Below are positions 32,190 through 64,000 of a DNA stretch of 64,000 bases, piece after piece. Source of the DNA: Sinonovacula constricta (Eukaryota > Mollusca > Bivalvia > Cardiida > Solecurtidae); the NCBI GenBank assembly GCA_007844125.1, contig CM017567.1, positions 862,604-926,603 on the forward strand, read 5' to 3'. A program made the position numbers and the translations under genes. The notes beneath the pieces are model-generated. The model was not told the origin of the DNA. It saw only the letters and a program-made list of their open reading frames with translations, and did not search any database. How positions within the stretch are numbered: the stretch's first letter is position 1; every line of letters starts with the position of its first letter.

Positions 32190-32507
32190 ATGTGGTTTAC
32201 CTTTATTTGTCTGGTGGCTTTTCTAGGTATGTAATTCTTTTATATATGTTTTTCTTCGAATCAGATGATCGATGTGGTACATAGGTACATATGATACGAG
32301 TACACTAAACAATTATTTTAACTTAAAGAAACTTTTGTGAAACTTTGTCATAAAATGTCCGGGCCGTATTCGAATCGTTTTTGTGAATAATTTCCTTAAT
32401 CATCTCCATTGCACATAACAAATGAACATATTGAGTTAAAAAATAAACATATTAAGTTAACATAACTAAACAGGGGTCTAACTGTAGAGGCAAATTATCA
32501 TACCTAT

Positions 32508-32594
<87 letters not shown>

Positions 32595-35500
32595 TATCAT
32601 ATCATATCATACCATATCATAACTATCTATCTACCTGTCTGTCTGTCTGTCTGTCTATCTGCTGTCTGTCTGTCTGTCTATCTGCTGTCTGTCTGTCTGT
32701 CTGCATGCCTGCCTGCCTGCCTGCCTGTCTGTCTGTCTGTCTATCTCTGATATATACCTATAATAGCTATAACTATAGCTATATATAACTATATAACTAG
32801 CTATAACTATATAACTATAACTTTGACTATATGTTTTATTTATTTATTCTTATATTTCTATTTCTATTTGTATTTAGTTATGGTTATAGTTATAATTATA
32901 GTTATAATAATTATTGTTTAAAACAGATACTATCACAAATAAACCATACCGGCAAAACATGGTTATATGTATGTACTTTAAAACCATAAAAAGGCACCTG
33001 ATTTTAAATGTTTTATCTTTGATATGTTATTTTCCTTGCCGGGATGGTATCTCACTGCCAGCAAACATCCTCTGTCTTTATAAACATACTTCATGTCCTC
33101 GTACATTTTCAAGTAGTTTTCTATCATTTTGAAAAAAACACACGTTTGATGGAAAAATACACAGTAGCACTAAATATTTGATCGGATAAAGGACTATACT
33201 CTTTAATTGAAATATTTTGTTTCAATCTTTATTTATGTTTGATAAATAGCAGAATCAAATAAGATTTTCTTTTTAATTTTAAAATGTAGCTATATCCTTA
33301 TCTGTGAATTGCAATTGATAAAGTATTTTACATCTTTATGTATATGTTTGATTTGTTATATTTGCATTTTTACGACGAGCTATGAAAAAATTATGTTCCA
33401 TTCTGTTGTTTGTATTCGGACCTCTTTCCTCGCAACCAAAGACACGTCGTTAGTGGTAGTTCTTGATCATATTGTCAAAGTTGTCATCTTAAAAAGTATT
33501 CGTATAAAAAATATATTCTTGCTGGAATAAAAAAAAGTGTTTATATGTTTTGTGGTTTCGTTCCATATATAGGTGATGGATTGCAGACCACTTTTAAAGT
33601 TGTGAGGATTACCTGTCTGTTGTCAGGCTTTACACTTATGAAAGCTGGGATTTTTAACGTCACGTTCTGTTGATTGTCAGTCGTTATTGGCGACGCGCTG
33701 GAGCGCGACGCCTACATTATGGAATGTTCACTAAAATGTGCACATGGGGAATGTTTGCTTTTCGGATTTTCTAAACCTGATCAATAATTCGGTAAACGGT
33801 GCTCTATTTTATGTTTTTATATTTATTTTTGTATGTTTGTGACTTTCATAATAAAAATAAGAAACTGAAAAAACCCATACTACGTTCGAGAAAAATACTA
33901 TCGGAACAATACTTATTTGTGTAATGTGAGGCTGCTGCACATGTGCATTTTCTGCTAGTACACTTTAGTTTTATAGTTAATTATAATATTTTTGCATTTT
34001 TTCTACATATGTAGTATCTTTGAAACCTATTAAATGGTGTCGGGTTTTGCCTTTCTTTGTTTTAAACCATTCTGCGGTCTCAGGAATATAAGTTATACAG
34101 GCTTTTACAAAATATAGTATACTGAAAACATTCAAATAAAAACCGTAACGTTTCAAGCGTCTTTGTTACTTGCTCTCATATTGCTTAAATCTCTTTACAT
34201 CTCCAACCTTTTGCGTCTCCTTTGATGCTTCGCATCAACGACTTTTCTTGTCTTTATTCTTCTTTTCTATATGACTTGTGGTAAGTTGCAGGCTGGAAGA
34301 CTTAAAAGAAAGAAGAGTACTTGACTCCTTATATCATTCCGAAAATAATTTCATCATAAACGGGGCCTGTTACATGTCAAGTCGTTCAGACGTGTGTAGA
34401 TGTATTTATAAATGAGACCAATCGCGGGGTTAGTAGTTCGAACGAACTGAAACTGGATCATGACGAGTAAATGATATACTACTGTGTATCACGTTCAAAC
34501 ATCAGATTGCACTTACTTACTTTCACGGCATTCTAAAATTCAATGTGCAAGGATTTTCTTTTCTTCGGATGGTTTGTTATTAGACAAACATGTACCTTTC
34601 ACTTGAATAGACGTTAGACGGTAACGATTGCTGCTTCGCATCAATGATTTTATGTAAATGCAAACAACCACATTAATCGACTGCTTCATGTTTAACCTTA
34701 TGCTATAAACAAAACAAACATGATAATAAATGTTCACTTAAAAAAACAACTGTAAAAACGAAACAACGCTGTGATCGGTTATTTTCACCACTTCATCTAG
34801 CAGCAAGACGAAATGTTAGAAAAACGTAATAATCCCCAGACGGAATGTCGCCAAATGTGGATTTTCGTCTTGCCACTAAGACGACTCAACGAATAGTAGA
34901 AATCAATAATATGTGTAAGTCATCGACGTTGGCGAATTGTTTCTGTCGTCTGTCAGTTGTGGCCACTTTCGTATCCTCATCTCCCTACTTATCATTTTGT
35001 TTTGTCACATTACGGTTACGCAATGCGTTTTTTTCCGGAGATAAGGCTTATGCTAACTAAAACTTTTAACTATATATAATTGCAAATACAAATCTTTACG
35101 CCGCTGTCGAAAATATTTAAGAACTATTTAAAGTTCTGCACAAGCCCGTACTGGAACGTGACAAGATGAAAAAAAACACAAACGAAAGCATGCAGCAAAA
35201 CAAGAGTTTACCAGAACAAACAGGAGACAGTTGCACTATTCCGATTTTTCAAATTTCAGCATTAAGTATTGTCGACTTCTACTTTCAGTTGTGTTGGCCT
35301 GGTGATGGCGCCATACAAAAGAGACGAAATGGCCTTGAAAGTTAAAAACCAAACAACCCATTTATTACAACCACCATAACCACAAATTGCTACCATATTA
35401 CACCTAACAATGTTATATTCATTTGCATGTTACATTATGCTGTAATTACCAGTGCCTTCATCGAAAACTGACGATGTACTTATTGGCAAATCGGCCACTT

Positions 35501-37282
35501 CTGAGGAATCCTTGACTGGAGTCGTCGCCGGAATAGCCGTAGGTGGTTTCTTCCTAGGCATGGTTATCGGCATAGTATCTACATGTATCATTAAAAGACT
35601 GATTCAAAAAAGGTAGGTAACTAAGAATCTTTTTAACATAAAATTAATTCGTTTTCTTAGAAACACTGTTAAAAATACTAGATTTGTTTTGTTGAATGAC
35701 CGGCTGGTGGTAACTGTTTTTTTTCTTTCGTGCGTAATGTATTGTCTAATTGAATTTGTAACTTGTTCATTAATTTGTCATGTGAGTTTATAAAGCGGTA
35801 GTTCAAGTTTTAACATATGTGGTAATTCTCATAGTGTTGTTTTTATATTTTTCCTTTTCATGTCACAAATAGGCAGCTTACTGTAACATTGAAATTGGCA
35901 TGAGATTAACCATTTTATTATATCACACATGGACGTTAAATTTTCATATTCTTGCCTGTTGAAAATTTACAATATCTCAAGCGACTTTATCGCATCGACA
36001 TAAAAAGAAAAAAGAAAGTTGGTGTAATTATGTTAATTAGTGCTTATTTCGGTAGTTACATCTTTTTACCAATTCTTATTTGCTGGAATTTGTTTAAAAC
36101 TTTGTTTAATATAATAAAACTAATGAAGGTAGCCTGTGTTATCACCCTGTACTGGATGTGATATTTTTATAGTGTCAATTGATGTGGTTTTTACATTATA
36201 CGAGTAAAGTGTTTGTTTTTCAGTCTGTGCATAGTGTTTTGTTTTTTAGACTGTGCCTATGCTGTATGGAAAATATTACTGATACGAGATATTTGGGGAA
36301 CAAAAGCCCGCAGGACTGCGTCACAACGGTCAAGTTTGTGAACACGCCAAACCTGGACAATGGTTAAATTTTAACATTCATTATTTGTTTACCCTGTAAA
36401 ATAACATAATATAACTGTTTGAATTTTGAAGTTTATTAAAAAAAATCGCATATATCATAAGTTTTACCGTTTGAACTATGTTTATGTGGCCTTCAAATGC
36501 AATACAAAGTTAAATAGAATCGATGTTATAAAGTCGAATATTTCGTCGCTTAATTTAAAAGGATTACGGTTTGTTTCATAGACATAAGTAAATGTACTTT
36601 CTTCGAGGTAGTATCCAATGGTTTGGACCTAAGTTTTTTTCTCAAACAACGAATTAAATCGTTGTTACCCGGAAAGGTCCCGCGAAGTGCTGTTCATTGA
36701 TGCCATACATCTAAAAGTGTTAAAAGTTTACCATAACACCCTAGTCGGTTGTCATCACAAATATGTATTTCTAATATGGGAAACGCTGCATAAGTGCCTT
36801 TTTTACACTAAGAAAACCACGTGACTACTTATCTTTGAGGTTCACGTTATATTACCATCCGGTTTATATGCTCTGGCGTATGTGTCTATTTTAGTAGAAG
36901 TCCCCATCTGGCTTATTTATAGATTTAGTAAGAATGAACATTTAAAGAGATGTGTACTGTCTAACAATTGCGGTAGTGTTTACATTCTTTGTGCAACATA
37001 AAACACAAGTTTATGCAGCAATAGTGCAAAAACACCTTAACACGGGTCCGGTTTTGTTGCTCTTACTACAGAGAAACCGTCGAACACCACCTTTATACAC
37101 CAATTTAAGTAGTTAAATGCCATTGATGATCTGCCATAATCAACTCATTTTGGATTTTGGTACACAATTTTTACTGATATAGTATTTTCTAAATGTTCGC
37201 AGAACCTCAATGCTCTTCAACAACGTACGAAATTCTTTCAAGAAGGGAAGGAGACAACAACACCTATTCAGAGCTAACCTAG
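32190..37282 (+). CDS. Receptor family member A: short ITAM-bearing membrane protein without a Cys-rich ectodomain
   Basis: Four exons with exactly compatible phases: 32190-32226 (37 nt, MWFTFICLVAFL signal peptide), 35453-35612, 36250-36362 and 37203-37282 (stop TAG). The product is 129 residues. A signal peptide is followed by an outer stub of only about 22 residues, a TM helix at about 36-59 (AGIAVGGFFLGMVIGI), a basic border (IIKRLIQKR) and a tail. The last exon has TTYEIL and TYSEL, giving Y112xxL-x9-Y125xxL, an ITAM-like pair. Exon 1 has the same length and phase as exon 1 of member B, the TM and tail exons align with B, and no Cys-rich exon lies in the 3.2-kb first intron. The last donor (AATG|GTTAAA) is weak; reading through it stops within two codons (exon 36250-36367), which would lose the ITAM. 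It may be an adaptor-like protein or a member that lost its ectodomain. Confidence 0.7.
32506..32760. repeat. (TA)n, ATC and CTGT/CTGC microsatellites
   Basis: About 85 bases of pure TA, then atcat units, then long gtct/gcct/atct runs to about 32745. All lie within intron 1 of receptor gene A. Confidence 0.95.
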
Positions 37283-37591
37283 ACACTATAAAACGCATCT
37301 GTGTTCAACAGTACATATGGCTTGAGGACCATTTATCAACAGCTTTATTGCTTAAATATTTAATTGATAAACTAAGTTGTATATAACATATTGCCATTAT
37401 TAATCAATCGTTTAAAGCATGTATGAGCCAATAACCAGTAACAGGGAAGAGGTCATGGGTTCAATTCATAAAATACCAAATATATTTTTATTTACATTTT
37501 TGCTTTTTACTACGAACATTCTCTATTGTATTAATGTTTAACCTTTAGGTCATAACAACATTAAACTAGGAATAATTCGTACAATAATTAT

Positions 37592-37756
37592 AGGTTATTA
37601 TACATTTTACTGTACAATACGGGAATATATTTGGACGAGTACACAGCTTGAAAAGTCATATTGGACAAGCCGATAAAGGCGAGTCCAATATGACTTTTCA
37701 AGCTGTGTACGAGTCCAAATATATTCCGTATTGTACAGTTAAATGTATAATAACCT
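37592..37756. repeat. Long hairpin (74-bp arms, 17-bp loop)
   Basis: The left arm (aggttattatacattttact, gtacaatacgggaatatatt, ttgaaaagtcatattggac) is nearly a perfect reverse complement of 37683-37756; I see only about a three-position difference plus one single-base indel. It resembles a foldback MITE. A shorter inverted pair (ccgtccaatat / atattggacgg) at 38040-38099 shares the gggaatatattggacg phrase. It lies between the 3' ends of receptor genes A and B. Confidence 0.93.
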
Positions 37757-37759
37757 TTT

Positions 37760-39255: not shown

Positions 39256-39258
39256 AGA

Positions 39259-39517: not shown

Positions 39518-42500
39518 CTAGGCAGCCACTTTACAAAATGTTTCCCCTCCTTCTATGGTGGCATATGGTCTGTCTTCAATGTCTACAATACTGACGTATG
39601 ACGCGTGAACTCTACAAGCATCTTCTGAAATATTTATAGACATATTAACCATACAGCGCCAGGTACAGGAGGCCCCGGGTTCGACCCCAGGCTGCGACAT
39701 ACCAAAGTCGTTAAAAATGGTAGTGCTATAATTCCCATTCTAACGCTCAAGCAAATATGAGGGTAGTTCCACGACTGTTTTGCCCGGTGTCAGAATAATG
39801 TGACTGGGTGTGGTATCATGCCAGGTGTTCACAGCATGCTGTACACATTGAAGACAGCACTTTATATGCTATCAAGTTGACACCGTCTCCAGATAATTGA
39901 AATAATGTTGGTGGGACGATAAACCCAATAAACAAACATTAACAATACATGAAGCGTTTTCAGTAAATGTGTTCGTAACGCTCAATTTTCCACGAAGTTA
40001 GTTGTATGCACTTTGAAATGATATTGAATTACACGACATTTAAAATACGACAGGATAAGAATCCTATTTGTTTTTCTGACACTTTCTAAATTCTAAAATA
40101 TTTCTTTACATATAAAATGAGTTCTCATATTTCATTAATAATACCAATTAACCTAAGAAACGTTATACTATGTTTTAAAGAATAAGGAATTGTCTTGATC
40201 TAAGTCAAAATAAGTAAGATTCTTTATGGATATCGCCTCTGGTGATAATAAATCAAAATAAATGTTGATATTTACTTTAGGAATCGTACAGAGCGTTCGT
40301 ATTTTTTAAAAAAAGTACAAAACAAAACGAGAAACAAATGAAAAACGTCTTGCTAACCCAGCAAAATTCATGCAAGCACAAACTGATTCTAGACAGAGAC
40401 TATGGAATGGTATTACCATTAGTGTTGTTCGTATGCGAAGAGTTCGTAAATTGCACAGTTGGGACGGAGACGTCTGAGTTTGCATTGGGATTCTGTCTCA
40501 CTGTCGGTGTCTCCTTTCTGTACCAATGACAATGTAACAAATCAAAAAGATGGCTATCAATTATTATCTGCTTAAAGTCTGAACTTTTCGCTGTTAGAAA
40601 AAAAAATAGATAAAGAATTATAAAGCCCTTAACTGGCTAAGACTTTGGAACAAGGAACTTTTATGCATAATGTATTCACTAGATGAGTTTATAACTTCGT
40701 AGAAAGAATACACTGTTGCATTTTAATTAGTCACGTTAAGTTTTACCAACCTTTTATAGATGATAAATAAGATGGTAATACCGAAGCCAAGGCCAATAAA
40801 GAAGGTTCCAACCGCTATTCCGGCAGTTTTGGCTTGGTTGTAAATTATTTTAACATCAGGCGACTTCGTTGGTGCTGTAAGCAAAAATGCACTAGATACC
40901 AACCAATTGCTTGTAATAGGGCTCATGTAGGTAATTTGAATATAAACATATTTCATTATATATATATCGGTACTTAGTTTACTTATATTTTGATTCCTCT
41001 TTTACTTGGACAATGTATCGTCTATACCTGTTTGGCCACATAGCATGACACATGTTAGAAAGTTATTATGTTTTTTAGAGTAACTTTAAATTGGGTTTCT
41101 AATGATTTTAATGCGTGAACGTCAGCAAGATATTTCTTTTAAATCTAACACTTATGTCCGTAATAATATCTTCCATCTAATTAAGCGTATATATTGCAAT
41201 TTGTATGACCATTTTCCAATTTAAGATGACTTTTGTTGAATTTTATAGGATATTCTCAGAATATACATGTATGTACTGCTTAAATTAAAACTATAAATTT
41301 AGTAGCACGTGCAACATTAACATTTTGGTATTTAATATTGGTTTATATGTTTGACACAGTGAAGAAGTTCTTCTTTTATAGACGTTAATGGGGAACGTTA
41401 ATATTGCACGTGAAGGAATATTTGCATGCTGATCAATGCGAGTTTATGTGTATTTTCATATTTTCCGAATTTTCCTAAAGAACATATTCAAATGGAAAAA
41501 ATATTTGCAAAACATATCAATTTCATTGCGGTTTCGAGAAAAGCTGCGTGGAAATATGGCAATATGACAAGAAGATGTAGATTAAACTTCTGTCCTTCAA
41601 ATGAAATATTATTTTCCATGACAATAATTTACTAGTCATCTTAACATGTCATATCATTTTTAATATTTATCGAACGATACTGTTCTCTAGCTCTAGTTTC
41701 ATCAAACTTATTTACTTAATTTAAAATTCATTTCCTAAGACTCTACGTGTAATAAGCTAATATTGATTGCTATTCATGGTTATGTCTGAATTTAAACTAA
41801 ACATTAAAAGATTTCTATCATATACAATATCAGTTATATACAACTAATATATCTAAATAAAATAAGACGACAAACCGAGATTACATTCAGTTAAACAGAA
41901 ATATGTGTATATGAAATTGTAACGCAGTGATATTTTAAACAAGCAATGAATCAGCCAGTGTCTATGGGATCCAGATTATACATGTCTTGTATTCATTTCC
42001 TATAAATATATAATTATTCTTATAACGTAATTCGTGACTATTAAGCAGACCTACCGAGTCTGATACACTGAGATTGAACACACAACGAGCACGTGTCATC
42101 ACACTGGGAACACACGACAGTACTATCATCTAGGATCTTCAAGTAGTAACCATCATTACAACTTGTGCAAGTAGTTCCGTTTATACAAGAGGAGCAGTGG
42201 TTAGGGCAATAGACGCATTTGTTACCTATTTGGTAAAAGCCAACGTCGCATCCGCCAATACAGTTACCGGAGAGATGTTCACATACGCTTCCAAAACAGT
42301 GTCTGTCACATGGATATAAGCAAGTATCCCCATAATACCCTTGTTTACATTCTTCGCAGCTTCCAGATGGGTCAGTGCATGATACACAGTTGTATCCACA
42401 AGGGACGCAAGTTCCTCGTGTTAAATAAAACTTCGGGGGACATGTTGTGCAGTTTCCATCCGTGTTGGAACCGGTAGTGTTACATTTTATACACAAGTCA

Positions 42501-45500
42501 TTGTCCAGAAAATAACCGGACGTACACGATGTACAGGATGCTGCTGAGGAACATTCAAAACATCCTTCGTGACACTGGTAACATTTGTAATTAGATGTCA
42601 GGTAATATCCAGACGTACATGATGTACAGGTCGAAGAAGAGTTACACTCTAGACACCCGGCGTTGCATTCGTAGCAATTGTTGTCAGATGTCAGGTAATA
42701 TCCAGACGTACACGACGAGTAACAGAAAGATGACGATTGGCATTCTAGACATCCGGCACTACATCGGTAACAGCTAAAGTTCGATGTTAGGTAATATCCA
42801 GACGTACACGATGTACATATTGACGATGAGTTACAATCTAAACATCCGTCGTGACATTGATAACAATTGTTGTAAGATGTCCGGTAATATCCGGACATAC
42901 AAGTGTTACAGTATGTTGATATGTTACAATCGAAACATCCGGTGAGACATCGGTCGCATCTATCGCTTGCTGGTGCAATAAAGTACCCATTGTCACATAG
43001 TTCACATGTGTTGTTATTGCTATTGCACTGAATGCAATTCAGAGGACACGAGGAACAGCCCCCTATAAAACAGGATTCTCAATCAACTGTATTTACAACA
43101 CCTTAAATAAAAGGACTATTTAAATAACAAAGCAAAAAAAAGAACATTGTTAAAGTGTTAAAATGATGAAGATCGTTCTGGGTTTCGCATCGAAAGCAAG
43201 CTTGACTAAAAAGACCTACCTACATCGCACATATCAAAGTCTATTGAAGACAATCAATAAAAACCAACAAACATGAAACCAATCGGAAAGCGCACATATT
43301 ATGACATATACTGCTAAGTAAGTATTTGATAAAGTAACAATAATGAAACATTACAAACTAGTTTATATTTTGTTTAGATGAGTTACAATATATATATAGT
43401 TATAATAATATATAATAAATATTAGAAGAGGAATGTCGCATGTTAACAGCATATATAAGATTAGCGTGGATATTATAACGACCACCACACGTGATTTGTA
43501 ACATGTTTGCGATCATGAATATCAAAATATGACAAGGTCTTATGCATATTTCAACATATATAAAGTTTCGAAAAATAGACACAAAGGTATATTCCTGTTC
43601 AATAACCCTTGTTATTTCCCTTTGAAGAGTTATTGTTCGTTTTGCGTACTACTTCCGGTGAGCAAAAAACAAACAAGATGGCGTCTGAAAACAATGAAAT
43701 CGGTGATCTGTGCAAATTTTCAAAATTATCAGTGCGCGAACTGAAAGACTTTCTTAGATAAAGAGGAGCGTTTGTATCAGGGAATAGCCCGGAACTTATT
43801 TACGCGATAAAAAGGCTTGGTACACGGACATTAAGTGACATTAAATTGGACGACGAAGAAGACCGCATCAAACGCGAAGGAGAGTTGTTTGTAACGCCAT
43901 TCGGGGAGAATCTTCCAAAACCTAGCCTGCTTAAAGGATGTTGGGACGAAAATCTATCTAAAGTTCTATTTTTTCGGCAAGATTAGTGACATAATTGCTG
44001 CCAGGCATTGCATCTATCGCACTGGATAGCGTGCATTCTTGCTGTAACAAAACGGTTGCAATTTACGCATTAGAAAGCCATTACAGTTTGGCTTGTTTGG
44101 AGAAACTGAATTGTCATCAGAATCGGATTCTATATATATATATATATATATATATCTTATTTGACAAACTGTTGATATAAGACACAACTGCGAAGTGTTC
44201 GTTACATACAAGTTCCCTCGTATCTATGATTGACTAAAATTAATCGTAATTAACTTTGTTCTTTAATTGTCGTCCAATCAGCGGTCATCTTAAACTGACA
44301 ATTCTTTCATTAATTAACATGTAATAAGCGGCCAATCAAGTAATTATACAATGCCTACAGTCGTCCTTAATTGCTTCCGATGCATCGGGATGCTATAGAC
44401 TTGTTTTACGAGTAAACAGATGCCGATCAATTAAGGTTTATTACATTTCTACACTTCTGTCAAAATGCCATAATTAAATTAGCCACGCACACGAACAAAT
44501 GTGTCGATTGGCAGAATTAGAGCACCTGTTTCTAATTTATGATGCAGGCTCTGCCTACTGTTTTGTTTTTTCTCCTAGCAGAAGGTAATCGATGAGTGTG
44601 AGAAACTTTTCTCATTAATTTGCAGACTCCGCCCATTATCGTCTTTTCTCGCTTCTTACGAAGCTGTAGGCGATTTTGACCGACGCACGGGTAGAAATTG
44701 TCATGGGTCAAAATAACCCCCGCCGCTTTATTGATGTGTGTCAGTAAGGGTATTTCCGAATTTTCGTGCGTCAAAACCCGGCAGCTCGGGTCAACCGAAC
44801 GCCCTGCTGTTAATGACCATAGTGCAAATTCGCTGCTGTTAACGTCACGTGATGGTCTTTGTTTCGATTTGCTCGCGTAACCTATTAATCGCAGCCAGTG
44901 TTTATACTTGAATAATAATAAATGCATCGATTATTCTTTTATCTTTCGACATTGTCATAGATTATAAATTTTCTGTAAACAATTAAATCTTTGAGACGCT
45001 TTGGAGTTTTGATTATGCCGTGAATGATGCACACACAATTCCCCACCCACTTTTGAAACTTTGTTGTCTACGACGAATCTGCGCGGTATAGGATTCTCCT
45101 CGGTGTATATACCATCTAGAAAATGCTCTGAACAAAGTCGATCATTCTTCAGATTGCAAGTGGAAATTTGGCTCATTGTTTTAAGTCGACTTATCTACAG
45201 TTTTCTCAATTTATCGTCAACTCTCCCCCTGTAATTGCTACACACACAACAATAATGTCTCTTTTTTCAGTCGAGTTTAAAACCTTTCTGCCATCGTTGA
45301 CATTTTTGATTTGCTCTCCACCTGAAATGAAATGCGAACCTCCACGCTAAAGAGCGTTTAAAGGAGGCAATTATTCAGGGGAGATAACAGAGGTTATTAA
45401 ACAGGACTATACACGTGACTTTCGAAGGTAAAAAGAACGTAAATTTAGACGAGACTTCGCAAAGACAGAAAAAAAACCAAAGTTTCCGCACTAAAAACGG

Positions 45501-46032
45501 AAATTCAGCAAAAGGGTCAAATGGGGAGCTCAAACCTGTTTACAGAGCTCTAACCTGTCACTTCTTGGGTGTTTTGAAAAAAAAATCAACAAGAAATACA
45601 CTTGAAACACATCGACCTGAAGCAAAACAGCGAAATTAATAACGTAAACAATGGTTACTAGTTTGTATTCAGGCAATGTGAGTACTATAACTGATAATAG
45701 AAATAATTTGTCTAATAGTTGAATTAGAAATTACAAAGATACTTGAGGACGATTATAATGGCTTAAAGTAGTCTGTAAATGATTTGATGGATCAAAAGAA
45801 ACCAAGGACAATGAACGTCAGGAAATTTCAGTAAGAGTTAATCGCCAACATATATCTCATATGTTATATTTTGATATCATGAGCTGTAACATGACTGGGT
45901 ACTTAATCAGATTCTCTAGTGACCAAGAAGCAATTTCATTTCAAATAATGTGCCGTTCCATTATTCATTAGTTTGTTAGAGAAATGGTCACTTACCTAAA
46001 AATGTCAATAAACAAGTCAAGAAAATCCACAT
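39518..46032 (-). CDS. Receptor family member B: furin-like Cys-rich repeats, TM and ITAM tail
   Basis: Five minus-strand exons join in frame: 46032-45996 (MWIFLTCLLTFL signal peptide), 43062-42055, 40874-40751, 40517-40417 and 39624-39518. Phases are 1, 1, 2, 1, with GT/AG at every junction, giving 458 residues. The 1008-nt second exon encodes about ten furin-like repeats (pattern CxxC..GCLxCxSSSxCTSCTSGYYLTS) with many N-glycosylation sequons. Residues about 366-388 are a TM helix rich in small residues (AGIAVGTFFIGLGFGI), followed by YKR. The tail ends with Y433VSI-x7-Y444ATI, a consensus ITAM spacing, in its own exon. Type I topology plus an ITAM recalls phagocytic receptors of the Draper/CED-1/MEGF10 type, which signal through Src and Syk-family kinases, but the repeats here are furin-like and the ligand is unknown. 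Intron 1 holds SAP and THAP-like fragments; intron 4 holds a SINE 25 bases from the last acceptor. Confidence 0.85.
39649..39945 (+). mobile_element. tRNA-derived SINE (family 2)
   Basis: B box CGGGTTCGACCCC near 39676, then ACATACCAAAGTCGTTAAAA, ATGTGACTGGGTGTGGTATC, GAAGACAGCACTTTATATGC and a tail ending ataaacccaataaacaaaca. It matches the inverted copy at 16526-16788. It lies antisense in intron 4 of receptor gene B. Confidence 0.88.
42595..42900 (-). repeat. 93-96-bp coding repeats inside receptor gene B
   Basis: The phrase ggtaatatccagacgtaca with neighbours recurs at spacings of 93, 96 and 93 bases. It corresponds to four consecutive, nearly identical Cys-rich modules (each beginning CYxC..GC). 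One module has an extra residue (CYSSC). The similarity at DNA level suggests recent duplication within the exon. Confidence 0.85.
43678..43986 (+). pseudogene. SAP-domain protein fragment with premature stop
   Basis: From the ATG at 43678 (aagATGGCG context) the frame reads MASENNEIGD, FSKLSVRELKDFLR, stop (TAA 43759-43761), then RGAFVSGNSPELI, and it stays open to a TAG at 43986. The segment around the stop is a SAP-like DNA-binding helix-extended-loop-helix (L-kLxVxELKxFLxxRGxxxSGxxxELI). The clean frame on both sides of the single nonsense codon suggests recent loss. It lies antisense in intron 1 of receptor gene B; I saw no downstream domain. Confidence 0.6.
44123..44158. repeat. (TA)n microsatellite
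   Basis: About 34 bases of alternating T/A. Confidence 0.9.
44955..45176 (-). pseudogene. THAP-like fragment
   Basis: A minus-strand frame contains NLKNDRLCSEHFLDG followed by a basic stretch with IPRRFVVDN. The C-S-E-H-F element is the zinc-binding half of the THAP DNA-binding domain found in host factors and P-like transposases. The N-terminal CxxxxC part and the Trp are not visible, so this is a fragment. Confidence 0.4.
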
Positions 46033-49819: not shown

Positions 49820-52800
49820 TTAACTCAAGCGTATAAAATCCCGCCATACCTTCGTAAATGTATCTAGCTTAACCGACTGGATAGCGACAAATTTTTCAGT
49901 AACAATCAATGATTTAACATGGTTCTGAAATGCATTTAAATTCAGAAAAACTCCCTTCATTTTACACCTATAAATATAGTATTTTAACAAAAGAATGATG
50001 TTGTTACAAGGTATGGTTAGTTGCGGACAGCCGAAGAGGAAGGTCTTTTTGGAGAGCTCAAAATTTAATTTAGGTATACTGCTCATTAACCATCGATGAA
50101 CTTCCATTACAAAATGCTTAACAATATTACAGTCCCAATACAAGTGACATAATGTTTCCGGAGAATTATTACAGAATGAGCAATTTTCGTTATCTCGTAT
50201 TTTCATTTTCTTTAGTAGAATATTAGTTCCAAGAATTCGGTGATTAATTCTATATTGTAACCACCTCAATTTAGGGTCCTTTGTTACTTTAAAAGGTAGA
50301 GAGTGCATGGTTTTCCAATTAAAATAGACCCCTGGGAAATTGTTTTGCCACTTCAATTGAGATTTTGGTTGAAGTTTTGTTATCACCATAACATCATATA
50401 TAGAACGGCTACCTTTTCGGTCTTTAGTCAGGATATTTAGTGATGTCTGCATTAGTGGGTTTTGAATTTTGTAGCCTTTGTAGCCCAGATTGAATGAAAA
50501 TCTTTTTAATTGAATGTATTATACCTTCAAATTGTAGGAAGTTTGTATTAACATCGAAATTTCTTTGAAATTCTGCAAAGGTGAAAAACACTCCTAAATC
50601 ATTTATGAAATCATTGACAAATAAAATACCATTTCTTAGGTATTGTTTGTATTTAAATGACCTCCCTGCTACTTTTAACAAAGGGTTAAGCCACACAGGT
50701 TGCATTAAAATCTGCTCCCAGTTATTTACAGGGATACTATTAACATAGGCACAATAACCATCCCAGACATCTGTCCAAAAAACATTTTTTACATTCTTCT
50801 TTTCACGTGCAATATATTCCACACCGTATTTGCTACAGTTATGGAGAAATGGGCAGATCTCACTAACAAGATATGAGTATTTACTATTGGACTGCATAAA
50901 TCTCCTGATCTATGTAACTTTAAGAGCCTGTATAAACTTTCTCACATCAACAGCTCTAAGACCTCCATTGCAAACATCTTGTGTTATAGTACCTCTACTA
51001 ATTTTATCTGGTCCATCATTCCAGATGAATTTGAAAAACATTTTTTGCAGGTCTTTTATTAAATTTGTACTAGGATTTGGTATCGTAAGAAAAAGACTGG
51101 TTAATTTTGATAGTGCCAGTGTCTTAACAACTGTTATTCGGCCCAAAGGTGATAGTAGCCGTTTGGACCATATAGTTAATAACCTTTTAATGTCATTACT
51201 CTTTGGTGCAAAATTGAGTTCACAAACCGTTTCTAAGTTTACCGACAGTGTCACACCTAATAATTTAAATGGACCATTATTCCACTTGACATTAAACACT
51301 GGGCACATAACTAGACCACTATTTTTCATAGACCCTATCCATACTGCTCTGGTTTTATCTACATTCATACATAGACCAGAAACATCTGCATAGAATTTTA
51401 AGACATTCATTGTGTTTAAAAAAGACTGTTCTGAGCCGTCAAGTATTAAACAGGTATCATCTGCGTACTGACTTACCAAGTATTCAATATCACCAACTTT
51501 AATTCCTTTAATATTCTTATTATTCTTGATTAACAAAGCTAAGATTTCTGCACACAGGACAAAAATATACGAAGATAAGGGGTCCCCTTGCCGGCAGCCT
51601 CTGTATAAGTGGAACCAGTCGGACAGGTGGCCATTAACCACAACAGCAGATTGGATATTGGTGTAGAACAGTTTAACCCAGGAAAGAATAGAGTCACCGA
51701 AGTTAAAAAAACCTCATAACATCAAGCATAAACTCCCAAGACACTGAATCGTACGCAGCAGCAAAATCTACTAGCAACAGCATACCTGAAATGTTGAATT
51801 TCTTAGTATAAAACAGTAAATCATAAATTAAGCGGATATTAATACCAATGAACCTTCCAGAGATAAAACCACTTTGGTCCTCGCTTATCAAATTGGCCAA
51901 AAGGGATTTGATTCTATTAGCAATACAAGCAGATGCTATCTTATATGTAATATTAAGTAATGAAATGGGACGCCAGTTTTTTAAATATTTTTTTTTCTTT
52001 ATCCCCTTTTGGAATACATGTGATTACACCCAACTTATCAGACCCTGACAGTTCACCTGTTTCATATGCACAGTTTAATGCACGTAACACAAAATCGCCT
52101 ATGTCCAGCCAGAAAAATTTAAAAAAGCTGCTGTAAATCCATTAATTCCCGGCGAAGTATCATTTGACATTCTTTTTAGGCTAAATAGTGCTTCTTCTTT
52201 GGATATAGGGCCTTCTAATTTTACTTTTTCTGATTCCGATATCTTTTTAATATCAATGTTTTCAAATATGTTATTCAGATCTATTGACCTGGTTTCTTTA
52301 TAGGAGTATAGGTGCTTATAGTGGTTTTTAGTTTCGTTCAGGATAGAATTCTGATCAATAATAAGGTTTCCCGTGTTTGTGTACAGACTTGCCATATGCT
52401 TCGAAACGAAATGTCTATTTTCTAAGTTACAGAAATATTTAGATGGTTTTTCCCCGTCCAGTACCCATTTAGCACGAGATCTTACCAGCGAACCCTCTAA
52501 ACGTTTTTTCCTAATTTCTAATAGCTCTTGTTGTTTTAAAACTAGCAAGGTTTGGTCATCCGTGTTAGTGCTCTGTTGTAATGATTCTAATTCCTGTATT
52601 AGCTTAGCCTCTTTTGCACACTCCTGGCGCTTTTTAAAAGTTGCAAATAAAATTGTTTGCCCTCGTATTTCCATTAGTAGTGTTTCAAGAAAATTTTTAT
52701 CATCAATAGAGAAAACAATATTTGCATTGTTTGTCTCATTTACCGGCCCATCCCTGTTCTGCGGTTCTGTAGCATACTGAATTTTAATACGCTGGATTAA

Positions 52801-53598
52801 TGACTTTGTTTGTTGGACATATTCTGCATCTTTTAACAATGAATTGTTAAATTTCCAGTAGGATTTCCCAGCCTTAAAACTGCCTAATTTTAAGCAGATA
52901 ACTATTATTGAATGATCAGAACAGTAACCTGGGACAATTAATGCTTCAGCAATGTCTGTGAACAACGTGTTCGAAATAAGAAAATAATCGAGGCGTGATT
53001 TTTTAAGAGGATTGCCTTTAAACCATGTATACTGTTTTTTTTCCAGGTTCTGTTCCCGCCAGCAGTCTATCAGGTCAAGTTCACTTATAAGATTAAAAAC
53101 TGCTTCCCGTGCCCTTGGGTTGTTAATGTTTACATAATTAAAGCAATCCATCTCAGGGTTAAGGATAATGTTAAAGTCACCAGCTATAATATATTCATTT
53201 TGAAGCATTTTCAATCTATTACACAAGTTGTTATAAAAATTAGACTCATCCTTATTTGGACCGTAAATGCAAACCAAAGATATTCTTTTGTTTGATATAG
53301 TGCAATGTACAATAATAAGGTTCCCACAATCATCTTTTTCAAATGATTGAAATTTAAAATCAAAGTTATTATCTATCAAAATAGCAACCCCTCTTGACTG
53401 ACTGCCAAAGTTGCTTAAATAACATTCATAACCCCATTGGCTCCGTATAATACTATAGTCCCTATCAGTGAAATGAGTGTCTTGTAAAAAATAAATGTTA
53501 TATTTTTTGTTGCGGATATAACTAAATACATCCTTTCTCTTTCGGCTATCCCCTAAACCCTGCACGTTCAAAGACGCAATTTTAACGCTTTCTGACAT
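49820..53598 (-). pseudogene. LINE ORF2: APE endonuclease plus reverse transcriptase, frame-disrupted
   Basis: The ATG at 53598 opens a 499-codon frame with APE motifs (ASLNVQGLG, LQDTHF, AGDFN, SRLDYF, CSDHSII). Downstream frames carry RT blocks: SEDQSGFISGRF and DFAAAYDSVSW (51703-51900), RGCRQGDPLSSYIF and QYADDTCL (50910-51641, YADD catalytic Asp pair intact), thumb and connection sequence (50424-50897), and the Cys/His motif CSFCNNSPETLCHLYWDC (49820-50452). I count four frame changes (near 52110, 51985, 51705 and 50450) and one TAG (50910-50912). At least three of the frame changes coincide with T or A homopolymer runs. The YADD and endonuclease residues are preserved, so decay is slight or some breaks are sequencing errors. 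Confidence 0.9.
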
Positions 53599-54362
53599 CT
53601 ACTAAAAGTGCAAAAATACACACAAAATCTAAGTATGAGTCTTCAACCTTTGTACAATAATTCAGATACAGTATTGTCTTAACTACCGTCACAAACACAG
53701 ATGATAGACATAACAGCTTTGGTAAAAGCATTATTATAAGCGTTTCCAACATGTATGGAGCTTAAGATTGGCAAATACTTTTAATGGACGTCATAAAACT
53801 CTATTGTTTTACTGAACCCCTATAAAACAATTTACAAAAAAGATCAGCATAATCCTAGTAAATTCTAGCATCGTTCTGTTAGATATACATTTGCTTTTAT
53901 GTGCGAAACAAATTATTTTATGTAGAGTGTTCTTTAAAAAATAATTTAAAAAAATCGAGATTTTACGTTACAAACAGCTTTATGCACGAATCATATTGCC
54001 CATCTGCGATACACTCACAATTTCAAATAGTGTTATATGTATACTTAGGAATAATCCATACTCAGTTAAAGCTAAATATCTGACATTTTCGCCACAAAAA
54101 TTTAAAGTTGGACCATAATAGATCTACAGTTTATATAGCTGTTCACATGACTTGTATGCAAAAAGACACATAAGCTAGTAATTAAAGGAACTTCTAAAAA
54201 AATAATGTTTATTAAATACACAAATAGTTTTACAACTCATAGCTATAACTTTTCACAAAACTTGTATTTAGACTATTACATTAACTATTACTTACCGGAA
54301 CTTGTTAAACAAACACTGTATTATCTAATAGTGAAAATATCAAGTTACTGGTGCAAATGCTG

Positions 54363-55469
54363 TTACCAGAAGTAGATTCTAATAACTAAAGTAATGCTAA
54401 CTGAAATATACCAACTACATGTTTTGTAGTAGAATCCTACAGGTTTTGACAGGTCCGTGTTAATGTCGACCTTGACTTTAATGCCGTTCCTCAGGAGAAC
54501 CAGGATCACGCCGTCGTCCGTCCAGACCGATTTGACGTCCTCACGTGTCGATAATAGTTGAACAAGTTTAACGTTTTTCACCGTCAAATCCTCACGGATA
54601 ACGATTGGTGTCCCTTTGAGTTGTCGACGTGCCCGGATAACCATCTTCTTAGTAGATCGGCGGACAAACTTGCAGATAATCGCCCGGTTTCCGTCGGTAG
54701 AAAAACGCCCGATCCTATGCGCCACACATATATCTTTGTCCCCAATTTGCAGGTCTAGCTTTTCATGAAACATGGCACATATAAGTGATGTCGTTTCCTC
54801 GGCGGTTTCGTTCCTTTTTTTGTCGTCAACTCCGAAAATTCGAACGTTGTTTATTCTACTATACTGCTCCTGCTCGTTGAGCCTGTGTTCATTCCACTGA
54901 AAAGCTTGTTCCTTTTCAGCTACAAGTCCCTTGAGCTTTTTGTTCGATTCTTTTGTTTGCTGCAGGTCTTTCTTCAAATTCTCAATTTCCAGTTTCATAC
55001 CTTCGGTGTCTGATTTTAAGTCTTCGATATTATTGACTGCTTCTAACGTTGTAGACTTTATGTTCCGCAACTGTTCGTACACCATGTCGAAGTCTTTTTT
55101 GATATCCGCTGCTAGTTCAGATTTAAAGGCTGACAACTTATCCGAAATGAACTCTTCCGTGGTGAGATTTTCTAAGCTTTTGTTGATATACTCCTTTGAA
55201 GCAAGAGTGTTTAATTTCTGAGTAAAGGATTCCATCATTTCAACAATCCTGCCCACCATGGGCTCACATTGTGTCTCACCCCTGAGCATATCGTCAATGC
55301 GCACTTGTTTATCTACCTTAGGGTCCTTGCTGCTAGCTCTGGCTGACTCTTTCGTATTCCTGTCGCAGCTTTCGTCTTTCTTCTTCCCCCCACTTCTGGT
55401 CTTGGACTTTTCTCTGGGCGTTGCTAGGAGAGCTATTTCCTTAGTCGAGCCTTTTTCGGTGTCCCCCAT
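54363..55469 (-). CDS. LINE ORF1 protein: coiled coil and L1-type RNA-binding core
   Basis: I start at the ATG at 55469 (MGDTEKGSTKE); the frame upstream opens only with TTG. The 368 residues comprise a basic Lys/Ser-rich N-terminus, a long coiled coil (about 95-200, with LKSDTEGMKLEIENLKKDL), then an RRM-like core (NNVRIFGVDD, VAHRIGR, RAIICKFVRR) and a C-terminal domain (GTPIVIREDLT). This order is that of L1 ORF1p, a trimeric nucleic-acid chaperone that coats the element RNA. The frame is intact. The 764-base spacer to ORF2 is long and AT-rich and may contain an insertion that I do not recognise. Confidence 0.85.
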   Translation of the reverse strand: MGDTEKGSTKEIALLATPREKSKTRSGGKKKDESCDRNTKESARASSKDPKVDKQVRIDDMLRGETQCEPMVGRIVEMMESFTQKLNTLASKEYINKSLENLTTEEFISDKLSAFKSELAADIKKDFDMVYEQLRNIKSTTLEAVNNIEDLKSDTEGMKLEIENLKKDLQQTKESNKKLKGLVAEKEQAFQWNEHRLNEQEQYSRINNVRIFGVDDKKRNETAEETTSLICAMFHEKLDLQIGDKDICVAHRIGRFSTDGNRAIICKFVRRSTKKMVIRARRQLKGTPIVIREDLTVKNVKLVQLLSTREDVKSVWTDDGVILVLLRNGIKVKVDINTDLSKPVGFYYKTCSWYISVSITLVIRIYFW

Positions 55470-55540
55470 TGTGAGCAAGAATTATACTGACAATAAAGAT
55501 CTATGTCGTCGTTTAGGTTTTAACAGTTTATAAAGTTATT

Positions 55541-58980: not shown

Positions 58981-59144
58981 TTTGTTATTTCTTTCTGCAG
59001 ATAACACAAAGTAGCGCGTTTATGATGATAAATTGAAACCATTTATTGTATTCGTTTAAATTTATTTCGTACAAAGAAACGGTTGGAATGTTACTATAAA
59101 TAAACAGGTGACCTAGAAACGTTTGAAGCGGTAGTGAAAATAAC

Positions 59145-59370
59145 TCTTCCGTTACTAGCATTCCGATTTTTGCGTTTCTACCGTTTCTAGCGATCCAAGC
59201 ACTCCGGTTATAGCGTTTATACCGTTTACACCGTTTCAAGCGTTTGTAGCGCTCCGTTGCATTTCCATTTCCACTCCGTTCCGTTTCCGTTTCAACAGGA
59301 AACGAAAAACGTTTCATTTCCATTTCCACTCTGTTCCGTTTGTCAATTTTATGATTTTCAGTACTGTATA
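59145..59370 (-). repeat. CGTTTCC-rich repeat segment, copy 2
   Basis: On the plus strand, irregular cgtttctaccgtttc/ccgtttcc units end at gtcaattttatgattttcag plus tactg. This is the reverse complement of the motif that opens copy 1 at 48602, so the flanking motif is on the opposite side relative to the repeat polarity. Confidence 0.75.
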
Positions 59371-59704
59371 TACATGCAGCAATTAGCTATGTTTACATAT
59401 ACATATCTTTGTTATTTCTTAAAATAGAAATTTAGTTAGATGAAATTTGCATGTGCCTGTTACCACTGGAACCTAGTGTTATTACATAATTGTCGATTAG
59501 TAGCAAAGTTTGGTACAGGTTGATATTGTTAGGTTCTGAAAAGAAACATAGTGTCCATTGTTCAGGAAGCACTTGACAAAGATCATTCAACGTTTTTCAA
59601 TTTTCATTATTAAACTACTTCATTTTAACACCATTTATTAGTTTGAGGGTATTGACATTCCCCACATGTACGAAAGCCATTCAGACAGAACTGACGACTG
59701 ACCG

Positions 59705-60340
59705 TATGCCACACAAAATGATACGCCTCGTAAAGTGGTCGTCTAGATTAGATTTTTAAAAATAAGCAATGAAAGCATTTATCAATTTTAGATTAGGGGT
59801 AAGTGTGTTGTTATGTCCTCAGACAGAAATTACAGAACTTTAAGTAGTCTAGAAGTGTATAATGCAGGTAAGAGTAAACATCGGTTCCCTTTTTTCTAGG
59901 TTTTGTCTTTTTTAACACATAATCGAAAACCATTACGTGAATACAAAAGATAAAGATGAACTTTAAAAAGAAAGCTGATAAAAATATTGACCGACTACTC
60001 GAATCCTTGACCGAAAAATTCCTTTATTTCTTAAGTACCTTCTTTGTTCACCTTGACATTCCCGACTAGTTTCGTGATTGTTTAGACACTCATGTGAAAC
60101 TTACAATAGAAATTCGACAGGCATAATTCACACGTTTCAATAGATAAATAAGAAAAAGGTCCTATCAACATTTCCACAGATATTTAAATTTAATCTACCT
60201 CAAGACAAAGGCAAACAGAGTAAATGTAAATGTGACAAAACACAGAGACGAGACAAAACACACAAAAAACAACAACATAAGTTACCGATTTTAAACGGTC
60301 AGACGGCAAAAGGACCGACCGGGGTGATTAAACCTGGTTT
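59705..60340 (-). repeat. Interspersed repeat directly downstream of the Penelope-like ORF (probable 3' region)
   Basis: It matches 46725-47390 (tatgccacacaaaatgatac, cagacagaaattacagaact, aaaattcctttatttcttaa, cagatatttaaatttaatct). It directly abuts the end of the Penelope-like coding region on the minus strand, so it probably represents its 3' untranslated part. Confidence 0.65.
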
Positions 60341-62485
60341 TCATTTCCAAAATGTAGGATGGCTTATGTCTTTCTGTATAAGTGTTTTCATACTGCTATT
60401 ATACTTAGAAACAATAAAAGCTTTGCGGTGAAAGAATTTTGAAAACACCTTTCTTAATTTGTGAAAACGAAAGCCTTGCTGTAACAGTTTAGAAGAAATA
60501 AACCGGTTTCTAGCATTGGAATCTTCTATTTTAGTGCAAACTTGTGCAAACCTTATAAGTTGTGATATGTAAATAAAATAGGAGGTAGCACGAGGTGAAT
60601 CAACATCAAGGTATGGATAATTCACAATACTAATGTTGAAATCATCTCTCTTGACATAGATTTTAGTAGAGACGTTGTCATTGGAAAGAGCGATCTCAAT
60701 GTCCAGAAATGCTACATTTAAATTTCAGTTATTTGCTTTATTAAGGGTGAGTTCTGGAGGAGTGTAATTCAGATGGATCATTTGAGAAAAGAAAGGATTA
60801 TCTATAGTAAGAATATCGTCAAGACAGCGTGACGTTAAATTGAAAGCCTCTATATTGTGGCTTTGGTTAGAAGGGGAAATAGTTAACATGAAATCACGTT
60901 CAAAGCAGTTTAAAAACAAATCTGCAATTAATGGTGCACAGTTGGTTCCCAAAGGAATACCAATTACTTGTCTAAATAAAGTGCCACCGCTTCTTATGTA
61001 GATATCGTCTAATAGGAAACACAGAGCGTAACAAACATCCGTGAAAGTCCACATGATAAACTTTTCTAAGAAAGTGTTGGTAAAAATATGCATTACTTTC
61101 ATGACATGCAATGTATAGACGTTGCTCTCGAGCAAATGTTTATTCAATAAGAGCAATCAAGTTGGTCTTAATTAAATCATGAGGTAAAGAAGTGTACAAC
61201 GTAGAGAAATCGAAATTATTAACTGCAGATCAATGAAAGTTTAAAGTACGAAACTTGTGTAAGAGTTCCGAAGAATTTTTAGTAGACCAAATATGTTAAT
61301 TCCTGAATTTTCATACACTTTTTCACATTATTTAACAACGTGATTACGAACCACTGTAAGGCAAGACGTAGGCAGTTTAGATATGTCAGTGGTGGTGCTA
61401 GAGCTGGCATTAGCTATGAATCGTGACTTGTATGGTGTTTTGTGAAGCTTATCTGAAATTTATCGTGAATTCTCTGAAAAGATTGTTTTATGTGTTTTAA
61501 GTGATAAAAAGGTTTCTTAGGTAAACTAGAAGGATGGGAGCGGTAGAATTTAACGTGATTTTTTTAGTATTTTAAAAATGTATTTCTTCCAAGTATTCAG
61601 TACAACTGTATCCGTGTGTTCTCTCTTACACCAGCGATCGGCAATCAGATTAATTGCATCAACAATTTCTTTGCGACAAAGGTCAAAATCTATTTCATCT
61701 GGCAGGCGACATTTCGTACCCTTAAAGAGTTATTTTCTTAATTTATAGTCATGAATGATGTTTAAATCCCCAGTAATGATAATATCATATTATGGCCAGA
61801 AGGTAAATAACAGAAAGGTGAAGTTGAACAGTTACAAAAATGAAAAGCATCATTCAGGTTAAGGTCCTCTTCAGTTTGATTGTAATTAAAAGTAAGACTT
61901 CTAATGGGGTTTTTGTCCTTATAACAAATCATTGGGTTTTCTTTGTTTTCGAAGTAACTGGGAAGTTTTTGATGATATTTTTGTCCCGGAAGATACTAGG
62001 TAAGTCGATAAAATCAATCTCTTTTTAATGTACTTGATTTTAATGAATTGTCGTTTGTGCTGGAACTGTTTATCAATATGAGGTCTTAAAGCATGGGTAG
62101 TATACTTTTGAATGATGAAAGCCACCTAATATTTAAAGAATGTCCAGTAGAAATAAATTGATTGAAAAGGTAGTTCTTAAAACGACAAGCGTTACGGATT
62201 TGATATGAATGTTCTCGAAAACTTATTGTAAGCACCCGTCCCGTATGTCCAACATACTACAGTTTACAGTTATAATGGTTTCATGTTATTACATAAATTA
62301 AGTTGTTACTTTGTCAATCAACATCACAATGTAAAGAAATGTTAAATGTTCGGCCATTTACAGTAGACATTACAGCGGAGTTACACTTAAGAAATCTACA
62401 TGTACTACATCTTTTATAATCACACTTATAGATACTAAAGTACACACTTTGTCCACTCTGTATTTGTGCGGGGGAATTCTTTTCA
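60341..62485 (-). pseudogene. Penelope-like retroelement with N-terminal (permuted) GIY-YIG, decayed
   Basis: Minus-strand order from 62485: a Cys-rich segment (YKCDYKRCSTCRFLKC), then a GIY-YIG-like block (NNLIYVIT, YVGHTGRVL, SFREHSYQIRN) to about 62150. Next come linker sequence (FCYLPSGH; DLCRKEIVDAINL; RWCKREH) around 61600-61860, RT blocks (FRQVIGIPLGTNCAPLIADL and CLDDILTIDNPF, 61156-60725) and a thumb region (ISQLIRFAQVC, KLLQQGFRFHKLRKVF) ending at 60341. The nuclease precedes the RT, whereas canonical Penelope elements have it at the C-terminus. This matches the described permuted clade (Chlamys/Naiad type) abundant in invertebrates. Many stops and frameshifts disrupt the gene. The catalytic Asp pair (LDD) is still visible. 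Confidence 0.8.
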
Positions 62486-62489
62486 TTAT

Positions 62490-63540
62490 TACTAGAAACT
62501 GCACGTAAAATATATGACTGCCGAAAGATAAATTACTCGAATTAGAAATACACCTTGCTTCAAACCATTGAGAAGGAAGTAAATTTAGCGCATACAGCCC
62601 AAGCACACATACTTAAGTCAAACAAGGAAATAAATAGTATAATAATAGTTTCAAAAGGAAGATATAAACGAGAGCACACAATGTAATCGTTTATTGACGG
62701 ATCTAAGTGTGTCAAATGGTAGAATAACATTTTAATTGACAAGCTGTGTTACTGAGTTCAGTAAGTATGTTTAAGTTTATATTACATGACTTTCATGTCT
62801 ATCTTGAGAAGTTTTTATTTTATTTTGTGTTACGTTCTATTCTATGAAGTAATGTTTGCTAGAAATAATGTAATTTGCAGTATATTCACGATGATCTTGG
62901 TAAACATGTTTATGGCATTTAATGCCGCTAGCTACTTCAGTTTGATCTAAATAAGTGTGGTTATTTTATGATATGCCTCTAATAATTAATTCAAATAGCG
63001 TTTGATTTTTATGATTATTTAAATTATGTCATGTGGTAAATGCGCTTTTTGCATTATGTGGCCTGTGTTATCAATTTATTTTCGTAAAGCCATAAAATAT
63101 GATAAATACAGATAAAGATACTTGTTCGTCTGTAAGCGAGTACACTTCTGTGTATACATTTTTTTGTAAATTAAGCATAAGATCGAACTTTGTACACGCA
63201 GTTTGATTAATTTGCATTTTCAAAACATATTTCCTAACAACACGTATATCAACATATGTTATTAGAATGCATTAAAGGTTTTATTCTTTCGTGCAATTAC
63301 ATATTGTATATAATACATGTGAATATATAAAGATAACTAAACTAACTAAATAACAGTAATATTCTCGTTCTGGTGACATATATACACAAACGATAACATT
63401 ATTGCTTTTTGCAAAGGCATTAACTGAACGATGGTCTGGTTATGATTTAAATGCATGTTTGCATACATTCCTCAGTACATTTAACTGATAAATTAACTTC
63501 CACGACCCATTAAAGAGAACTATTTGTGACCATATGTTGT
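62490..63540. other. No gene recognised; region upstream of the receptor C TM exon
   Basis: AT-rich. I looked for a signal-peptide exon or Cys-rich exon of receptor gene C and saw no convincing one. An ATGTGG at 63056 opens nine hydrophobic codons followed by C|GTAAAG, which is weak. Confidence 0.45.
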
Positions 63541-63542
63541 AG

Positions 63543-64000
63543 CAACTACTCTTGTTAAAGTAGGAAGGATGGAACTTGGAATAGTTGCAGGAATTGCTCT
63601 CGAGACATTCTTGATTGGACTAGGTCTTGGAGCCTGTGCTGTTCTTGTTGTAGACATTCTATTCCGAAAGAGGTAAAGACGTATTAAAATATACGTGTAT
63701 ATTTTTTTTTAAAAGTTTGAGTAAGATTATTTATTACAAACAAAACTGACAAATATACATATGTACTATCATATTATTATAAACGCTCTACACAATACAC
63801 AGTGAATATTTTATTAATATTTTTAAGCAAAGATAAATAATCAGGTTGGTTTTAAAAAATAGAATTTCAAATTAATCAGAGATGAAAAAAGTAAAGGTTG
63901 TATAAATTGTATAAATATATTTACAGGCGTGTTAACATAAAAGAAGACACTAAAAAGGACCAGAACAACACCATAAACCCTTCAATGCAATACGTAAATC
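63543..64000 (+). CDS. Receptor family member C: TM exon and start of the cytoplasmic exon (partial)
   Basis: Exon 63543-63672 (acceptor gttgtag, donor AAAGAG|GTAAAG, 130 nt) starts in phase 1 and ends in phase 2, exactly as the TM exons of members A and B. It encodes GIVAGIALETFLIGLGLG and then LFRKR. The next exon starts at 63927 (acceptor tttacag) and reads RVNIKEDTKKDQNN...MQYVN to the window edge, comparable with the exon-4 segments of A and B (KFVN, QFTN). Unlike A and B, the TM segment contains Glu and, near its inner end, Asp. The ectodomain and the presumed ITAM exon are not in view. Confidence 0.7.

Follow-up and report, generated by a model that had tools for sequence, protein, structure and literature searches.

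A predicted family of membrane receptor genes with paired YxxL/I tails in the bivalve Sinonovacula constricta

Three related genes in the window

The window analyzed here is a stretch of 64,000 nucleotides from the bivalve Sinonovacula constricta (C13:862604-926603, where C13 is contig CM017567.1), in a genome of 1.22 Gb and 177 contigs. It contains three genes, A, B, and C, whose predicted products are membrane proteins with two YxxL/I motifs in the tail, the pattern of an immunoreceptor tyrosine-based activation motif (ITAM). The initial annotation had proposed that the three genes have a common exon plan, in which a transmembrane (TM) exon entered in phase 1 and left in phase 2 is followed by a linker exon and, in A and B, by a tail exon entered in phase 1. 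Splice sites, phases, and motifs of all three genes were checked by script and agree with this plan. The phases 1-2-1 are common to A (+), B (-), and C (+), the signal-peptide exons of A and B are both 37 nt long, and the tails of A and B each carry two YxxL/I motifs (Table 1). Gene C has a final YxxL exon too, which was missed because the window ends before it. The proposed TM pattern was borne out by an alignment of A, B, and C, in which the A-G-I-A, F, G, and G columns are invariant (A-G-I-A-x3-F-x2-G).

Gene A has GT/AG at all of its introns, and the joined model predicts a protein of 128 amino acids followed by a stop codon. The protein has no Pfam match, and its TM segment is free of charged residues. 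No convincing ectodomain exon was found in the intron between the signal-peptide and TM exons. Strict criteria gave no candidates and loose criteria gave 24, eight of which were shown; none of these eight was cysteine-repeat-like, and the loose scan ranked the true ectodomain exon of gene B first. A palindrome lies just 3' of gene A (window ~37620-37740, longest exact inverted match 28 bases at 37683) and is perhaps a small mobile element.

Gene B has the exon plan of A with an ectodomain exon added between the signal peptide and the TM segment. Its complete five-exon model predicts a protein of 458 amino acids, with GT/AG at all introns and no internal stops. Genes A (+) and B (-) are convergent, tail to tail, and 2.2 kb apart. 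No signal-peptide exon was found for gene C. The variable ectodomains ascribed to this cluster were not borne out within the window, where an ectodomain is seen in B only.

Table 1. Exons of genes A, B, and C and related loci elsewhere (window positions unless a contig is named)
Feature	Position	Strand	Details
Gene A exon 1, signal peptide	32190..32226	+	MWFTFICLVAFL; 37 nt; donor GTATGT
Gene A TM exon	35453..35612	+	phase 1 in, 2 out; acceptor CAG; donor GTAGGT
Gene A linker exon	36250..36362	+	FVNT; phase 2 in, 1 out; weak donor GTTAAA
Gene A tail exon	37203..37282	+	YEIL-x9-YSEL, stop
Gene B exon 1, signal peptide	45996..46032	-	MWIFLTCLLTFL; 37 nt; donor GTAAGT
Gene B ectodomain exon	42055..43062	-	VSP/furin-like repeats; 1008 nt, 336 aa, 27 CxxC
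Gene B TM exon	40751..40874	-	phase 1 in, 2 out
Gene B linker exon	40417..40517	-	FTNS; 101 nt
Gene B tail exon	39518..39624	-	YVSI-x7-YATI, stop
Gene C TM exon	63543..63672	+	phase 1 in, 2 out; E and D in or at membrane segment
Gene C linker exon	63927..64000	+	YVNL; extends 21 bases beyond window
Gene C tail exon	L001:230-318 = C13:926833-926921	+	YETL-x9-YSVL, stop; beyond window end; from genome search with C
A', B', C'	C13 1219-1233 kb		TM + tail, like A, B, C; inverted
D	C13 1119-1124 kb		TM + tail
F	C13 262 kb		TM + tail
H	C13 287 kb		TM + tail
G	C13 385 kb		TM + tail
A-like loci	C13 3265, 3335, 3383, 3432, 7099 kb		TM + tail
E	C13 342.8 kb		TM only; ectodomain and TM in one open frame, unlike B and D
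Tail-only loci	C13 3175, 3277.8, 7087 kb
Linker-only locus	C13 240.9 kb
Partial members outside C13	C3 17.77-17.81 Mb; C10 10.45-10.46 Mb

Relatedness and paralogues

Profiles built without the three genes recover their TM exons. The held-out TM and tail profiles were made from paralogues outside the window only, with no rows from A, B, or C, and were scanned against a contiguous stretch of 314 kb (100 N inside). The TM profile found A, C, and B at E values of 5.8e-14, 1.5e-5, and 1e-4, while the E value was 0.21 for the next open frame and 1 for the best of the reversed frames. The tail profile found the tail of A at 1.2e-6, with the best reversed open frame at 0.15. When all members were included in the profiles, only A, B, C, and a further gene, D, had both exons below E 1e-5 in the same stretch. 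A weak tail-like frame at C13:1005417-1005545 (-) scored 0.0045 with the all-member profile, against 0.094 for the reversed control, and 3.9 with the held-out one. This frame fits the paired motif, no TM partner was found for it in the scans, and it was not counted as a member.

Conservation of the tail exon among paralogues, which had been set in advance as a test of the family, was found when the search was run. The pattern YxxL/I-x6-12-YxxL/I fits 17 of the 18 tails collected, the exception being H, which has YSTF, and the tyrosine motifs are spaced 7-9 residues apart in all 18. These are the tails without an in-frame stop. The B' tail, with a stop inside the motif, two second copies that contain stops, at about 3266.4 and 3384.4 kb, and the weak frame described above were left out. 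The paired motif occurs by chance in 860 of 200000 random composition-matched 27-mers; when the residues of six tails were shuffled, between 61 and 233 of the 50000 shuffles of each tail contained it. Nonsynonymous divergence of the tail (dN) is 0-0.095 and synonymous divergence (dS) is 0.13-1.02 in five pairs drawn from D, F, G, and H, each compared over 24 codons. The TM exons of A and A' have a dS of 0.167 and a dN of 0.027.

The linker and the TM segment also have recurring features. Y/F-x-N is kept in all ten aligned linkers and reads YVNT, which resembles a Grb2 SH2 site, in five of them; an eleventh linker outside that alignment, at 240.9 kb, reads YLN. The best 21-residue TM segment is uncharged in 13 of 15 cases, the exceptions being C (E) and the 3335-kb member (R).

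The initial annotation had described a cluster of paralogous ITAM-type genes, and the genome searches extend it: at least 15 loci on C13 carry both TM and tail matches (Table 1). Family members were collected with C, B, A, D, and a 3.38-Mb member as queries. Only the best candidates were scored in these searches, so the locus counts are lower bounds. Gene D, ~195 kb away, has a complete predicted model with the five-exon plan and phases of B and a longer ectodomain containing 61 CxxC motifs. The same ectodomain type is present in E. F and G have VSP matches upstream of their TM exons and on the same strand as these. The convergent arrangement of A and B has parallels farther along the contig: the 3265-kb gene (+) faces the 3277.8-kb tail (-), and the 7099-kb gene (-) faces the 7087-kb tail (+), each ~11.6 kb apart. 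Downstream of the (+) genes at 3265, 3335, and 3383 kb there are VSP matches on the minus strand, at distances of 18-40 kb.

A genome-wide VSP search listed 24 matches (10 on C13, 12 on C16, and one each on C3 and C17) and matched none of 14 control genomes. The search listed neither B nor D; that it also listed nothing beside A or any of the five A-like loci is therefore weak evidence that they have no ectodomain of this kind. The VSP-like matches on C16 (3.6, 13.1, 13.3, and 19.2-21.2 Mb) and C17 (52.5 Mb) include open frames of up to 794 amino acids. The family genome searches gave no TM or tail match near them, and a second cluster of VSP-type surface proteins is possible there. VSP-like stretches with in-frame stops lie near gene D (L034:2256-3838; L037:2540-3033 and 5497-5990, the L037 one being present twice) and are probably decayed copies.

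The A-B-C block recurs in inverted orientation ~300 kb away on C13, with a broken copy of B. C and C' are 98.4% identical over 2.0 kb, an A/A' stretch is 96% identical over 301 bases, and B and B' are 88-91% identical. The first 2 kb of a separate 864-aa gene of the window are found once more, in inverted orientation and with 99% identity, at C13:1242224-1244224, approximately where the A/B mirror predicts it. B is the most diverged of these four block parts. The broken copy B' (L016, C13:1225202-1228339) has a signal-peptide exon without a donor, no ectodomain exon, and a stop in the tail motif. A kinase search gave mirrored pairs of equal-scoring matches on single contigs (C3, C9, C11, C12, and C19), for example at 19.38-19.40 and 20.03-20.04 Mb of C9, which suggests that unpurged haplotypes were retained in the assembly. 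For this reason a recent segmental duplication was not adopted as the reading of A'B'C', which may be the other haplotype of A-B-C. In that case the 15 loci would become 12, and B' would be a null allele of a receptor gene.

The broken copy raises the question of whether A and C are themselves decayed members that have lost their ectodomains, leaving only the B-type genes (B, D, E, F, and G) as working receptors. The B copy at C13:1225908-1228035, the stop-bearing stretches in L034 and L037, and the missing signal-peptide exon of C fit this explanation. On the other hand, the TM, linker, and tail exons are open in A and A', with dN below dS in their TM exons, and TM and tail exons are retained at the A-like loci (five, at 3.27-7.10 Mb), where the comparison covered these two exons. 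Decay of A and C is the least probable of the explanations considered here.

Ectodomain, signaling, and possible roles

The ectodomain of B matches the VSP family by sequence. PF03302 is its sole Pfam match (6e-13, 48.9 bits against a gathering cut-off of 31.4), and a sequence search of the PDB gave no matches. In this respect B resembles the Giardia VSPs and the CxxC-rich proteins of Tetrahymena and Entamoeba. It differs from the Giardia proteins in its tail, which has an ITAM and ends in KVAA; the Giardia VSP C-terminus is CRGKA. A protein database search with the ectodomain gave 58 rows, with an organism named in seven, all of them Tetrahymena or Entamoeba; for the part from TM segment to tail there were 55 candidates and none at E 10. 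A protist ancestry of the ectodomain was considered and dropped because animal relatives may be missing from this database, in which the 864-aa gene of the window likewise finds no relatives (7992 candidates scored).

The predicted fold points weakly to furin repeats of the R-spondin type. A structure predicted without an alignment had a mean confidence (pLDDT) of 67.5 and no match at 0.001, while a model from a 29-row alignment reached a pLDDT of 86.9 and a pTM of 0.59. Foldseek matched this model to R-spondin Fu1-Fu2 (4c9r_D) at E 9.1e-4 and probability 0.99, with low TM-scores of 0.14 and 0.38. The top row was a mastigoneme protein (E 7.6e-4) with a probability of only 0.33, and ErbB and TNF receptor ectodomains were found lower among the matches to solved structures. 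Unlike the R-spondins, B would be membrane-bound and has many more repeats, and it has no PDB sequence match. The R-spondin, ErbB, and TNF receptor matches are what would be expected if the furin-like repeats bound a growth factor or matrix ligand, giving the family a role in development or adhesion rather than immunity. Such a role seems unlikely for a multi-copy, clustered, and locally diverged family with a broken copy, which is unlike a conserved developmental receptor.

A candidate signaling partner is encoded in the genome. A SYK tandem-SH2 query gave ordered matches at C8:55820200-55813029 (-), with E values of 1.7e-7, 1.8e-6, 0.0017, and 4.7. A SYK kinase query matched the same strand at C8:55807155-55802991 (-) with 55% and 63% identity. 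The region C8:55.80-55.82 Mb is thus a predicted Syk-like gene, with two SH2 domains followed by a kinase. A second SH2/kinase group is found at C5:50.66-50.68 Mb.

With some confidence, A, B, and C can be regarded as one family of predicted single-pass membrane proteins with paired YxxL/I tails, probably cell-surface receptors that would signal via a Syk-type kinase. Seen in the sequence in favor of this are the exon plan, the glycine-patterned TM segment, the Y/F-x-N linker, the paired-tyrosine tail, the CxxC ectodomain in B, D, E, F, and G, and the Syk-like locus. The small-xxx-small pattern of the TM segment would favor pairing or clustering. Ligand binding by a B-type cysteine-repeat ectodomain could cluster the tails, as could the association of A and C, in which no ectodomain was found, with partner receptors. 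A Src-family kinase would then phosphorylate both tail tyrosines, the tandem SH2 domains of the Syk-like kinase would dock on the tail, and YVNT in the linker could recruit a Grb2-type adaptor. By analogy with known ITAM systems, haemocyte recognition would be the most likely role of the family, although the innate immune role proposed in the initial annotation went further than the sequence allows.

Several observations weigh against this interpretation. The exon edges and junctions are predictions from sequence. In the 314-kb stretch the held-out tail profile did not find the B and C tails, so the argument for these two depends on their position and phase and on the motif. The A/A' tails have two nonsynonymous and no synonymous changes, the C/C' linkers have four and none, and the A tail compared with the 3383-kb tail gives a dN of 0.35 and a dS of 0.353; constraint is therefore not evident for every pair. 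The classical ITAM spacing is 6-8 residues, which x9 exceeds. A Pfam ITAM search was uninformative, being silent in every genome, controls included. Genes A and C are without a detectable ectodomain, and C is also without a signal peptide. The last two of the four SH2 matches on C8 are weak, with a stop inside the third, and the best MALT1_Ig match is also weak (E 0.12).

The same tails could have an inhibitory or endocytic function. YxxL is compatible with sorting signals, and the tails might be pairs resembling immunoreceptor tyrosine-based inhibitory motifs (ITIMs) or AP-2 sorting sites in proteins that dampen signaling or drive uptake. The variation in motif spacing from 7 to 9 would suit this, and a Draper splice form is reported to have an ITIM in place of its ITAM (PMC4503800). 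However, a pair of motifs at 7-9 residues in 18 of 18 tails, with L/I at both ends in 17, suits a tandem SH2 domain, while sorting needs only one motif, and a Syk-like locus is present in the genome. An inhibitory or endocytic function is improbable on this evidence.

Activating receptors of this kind would stand beside several known systems. The oyster proteins CgCLec-TM1 and CgCLec-HTM are likewise membrane receptors of a mollusc with a YxxL-type motif on the cytoplasmic side, for which association with Syk is reported, along with the driving of ERK, IL-17, and TNF responses (PMC13027682). In these proteins a lectin domain is combined with a half or non-classical ITAM, whereas this family has both YxxL motifs and B has a VSP match. 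No C-type lectin match was found in A, B, or C with Pfam, and the combination of a lectin with a single YxxL that marks hemITAM lectins is not present. Draper, CED-1, and MEGF10 combine a cysteine-rich ectodomain with a single TM segment, as does this family. The Draper ITAM is reported to act through the Syk relative Shark (PMC4503800), and action through a Syk relative is also what is proposed here. No EGF or EMI match was found in B with Pfam, and no NPxY in the A, B, and D models. Gene A resembles FcR-gamma, CD3-zeta, and DAP12 in its short outer part and ITAM tail, but it lacks both the acidic TM residue and a Pfam match to these families. In gene C, E and D residues do lie close to the TM segment, yet no signal peptide was found. 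The family belongs neither to the oyster hemITAM lectins nor to Draper.

In molluscs a chain of Syk, CARD-CC, Bcl10, and paracaspase has been reported, with the upstream ITAM receptors only inferred (PMC5978004). No description of an ITAM family such as this one was found in the open-licence literature, among the matches listed. Because its ITAMs are complete, a multi-gene family such as this offers concrete candidates for what feeds the invertebrate Syk, and makes the question directly testable. If the interpretation is true, a protist-like CxxC surface scaffold has been joined to immune-type signaling in an animal. More tentatively, an invertebrate lineage may have built a clustered and copy-number-variable ITAM repertoire on a VSP/furin-like scaffold. 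Recognizing B-type receptors and ectodomain-less A- or C-type partners would form convergent pairs, functional and null B alleles would segregate, and the Syk-coupled locus would have a layout similar to that of the leukocyte receptor complex of vertebrates.

Other features of the window

The family had been described as independent of transposons, and this stands: the transposon frames recognized in the window lie apart from the exons of the family, and none of the Pfam families of these frames is matched by A, B, or C. A long interspersed nuclear element (LINE)-type element lies between B and C (49820-55481, -), with endonuclease, reverse transcriptase, and zf-RVT frames and an upstream 372-aa frame that has no Pfam match. 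Reverse-transcriptase-like frames, possibly Penelope-like, were seen by eye at 60341-61156 (-); the piece tested (60728-61156) has no Pfam match. A DDE_3 transposase frame and an adjoining helix-turn-helix (Tc3-like) frame are found at 7790-9030 (-).

The 864-aa gene is a single exon at 24426-27017 (+), with its start taken by eye as the first ATG of the long frame. It has no Pfam match at 0.001, and a B-box/TRIM-type appearance noted by eye was not borne out by Pfam. Minisatellites occupy 2528-4761 and 11824-12586. They consist of ~37 copies of a 60-base unit, whose repeats form long open frames on both strands, together with arrays in which the unit is 78 or 57 bases long.

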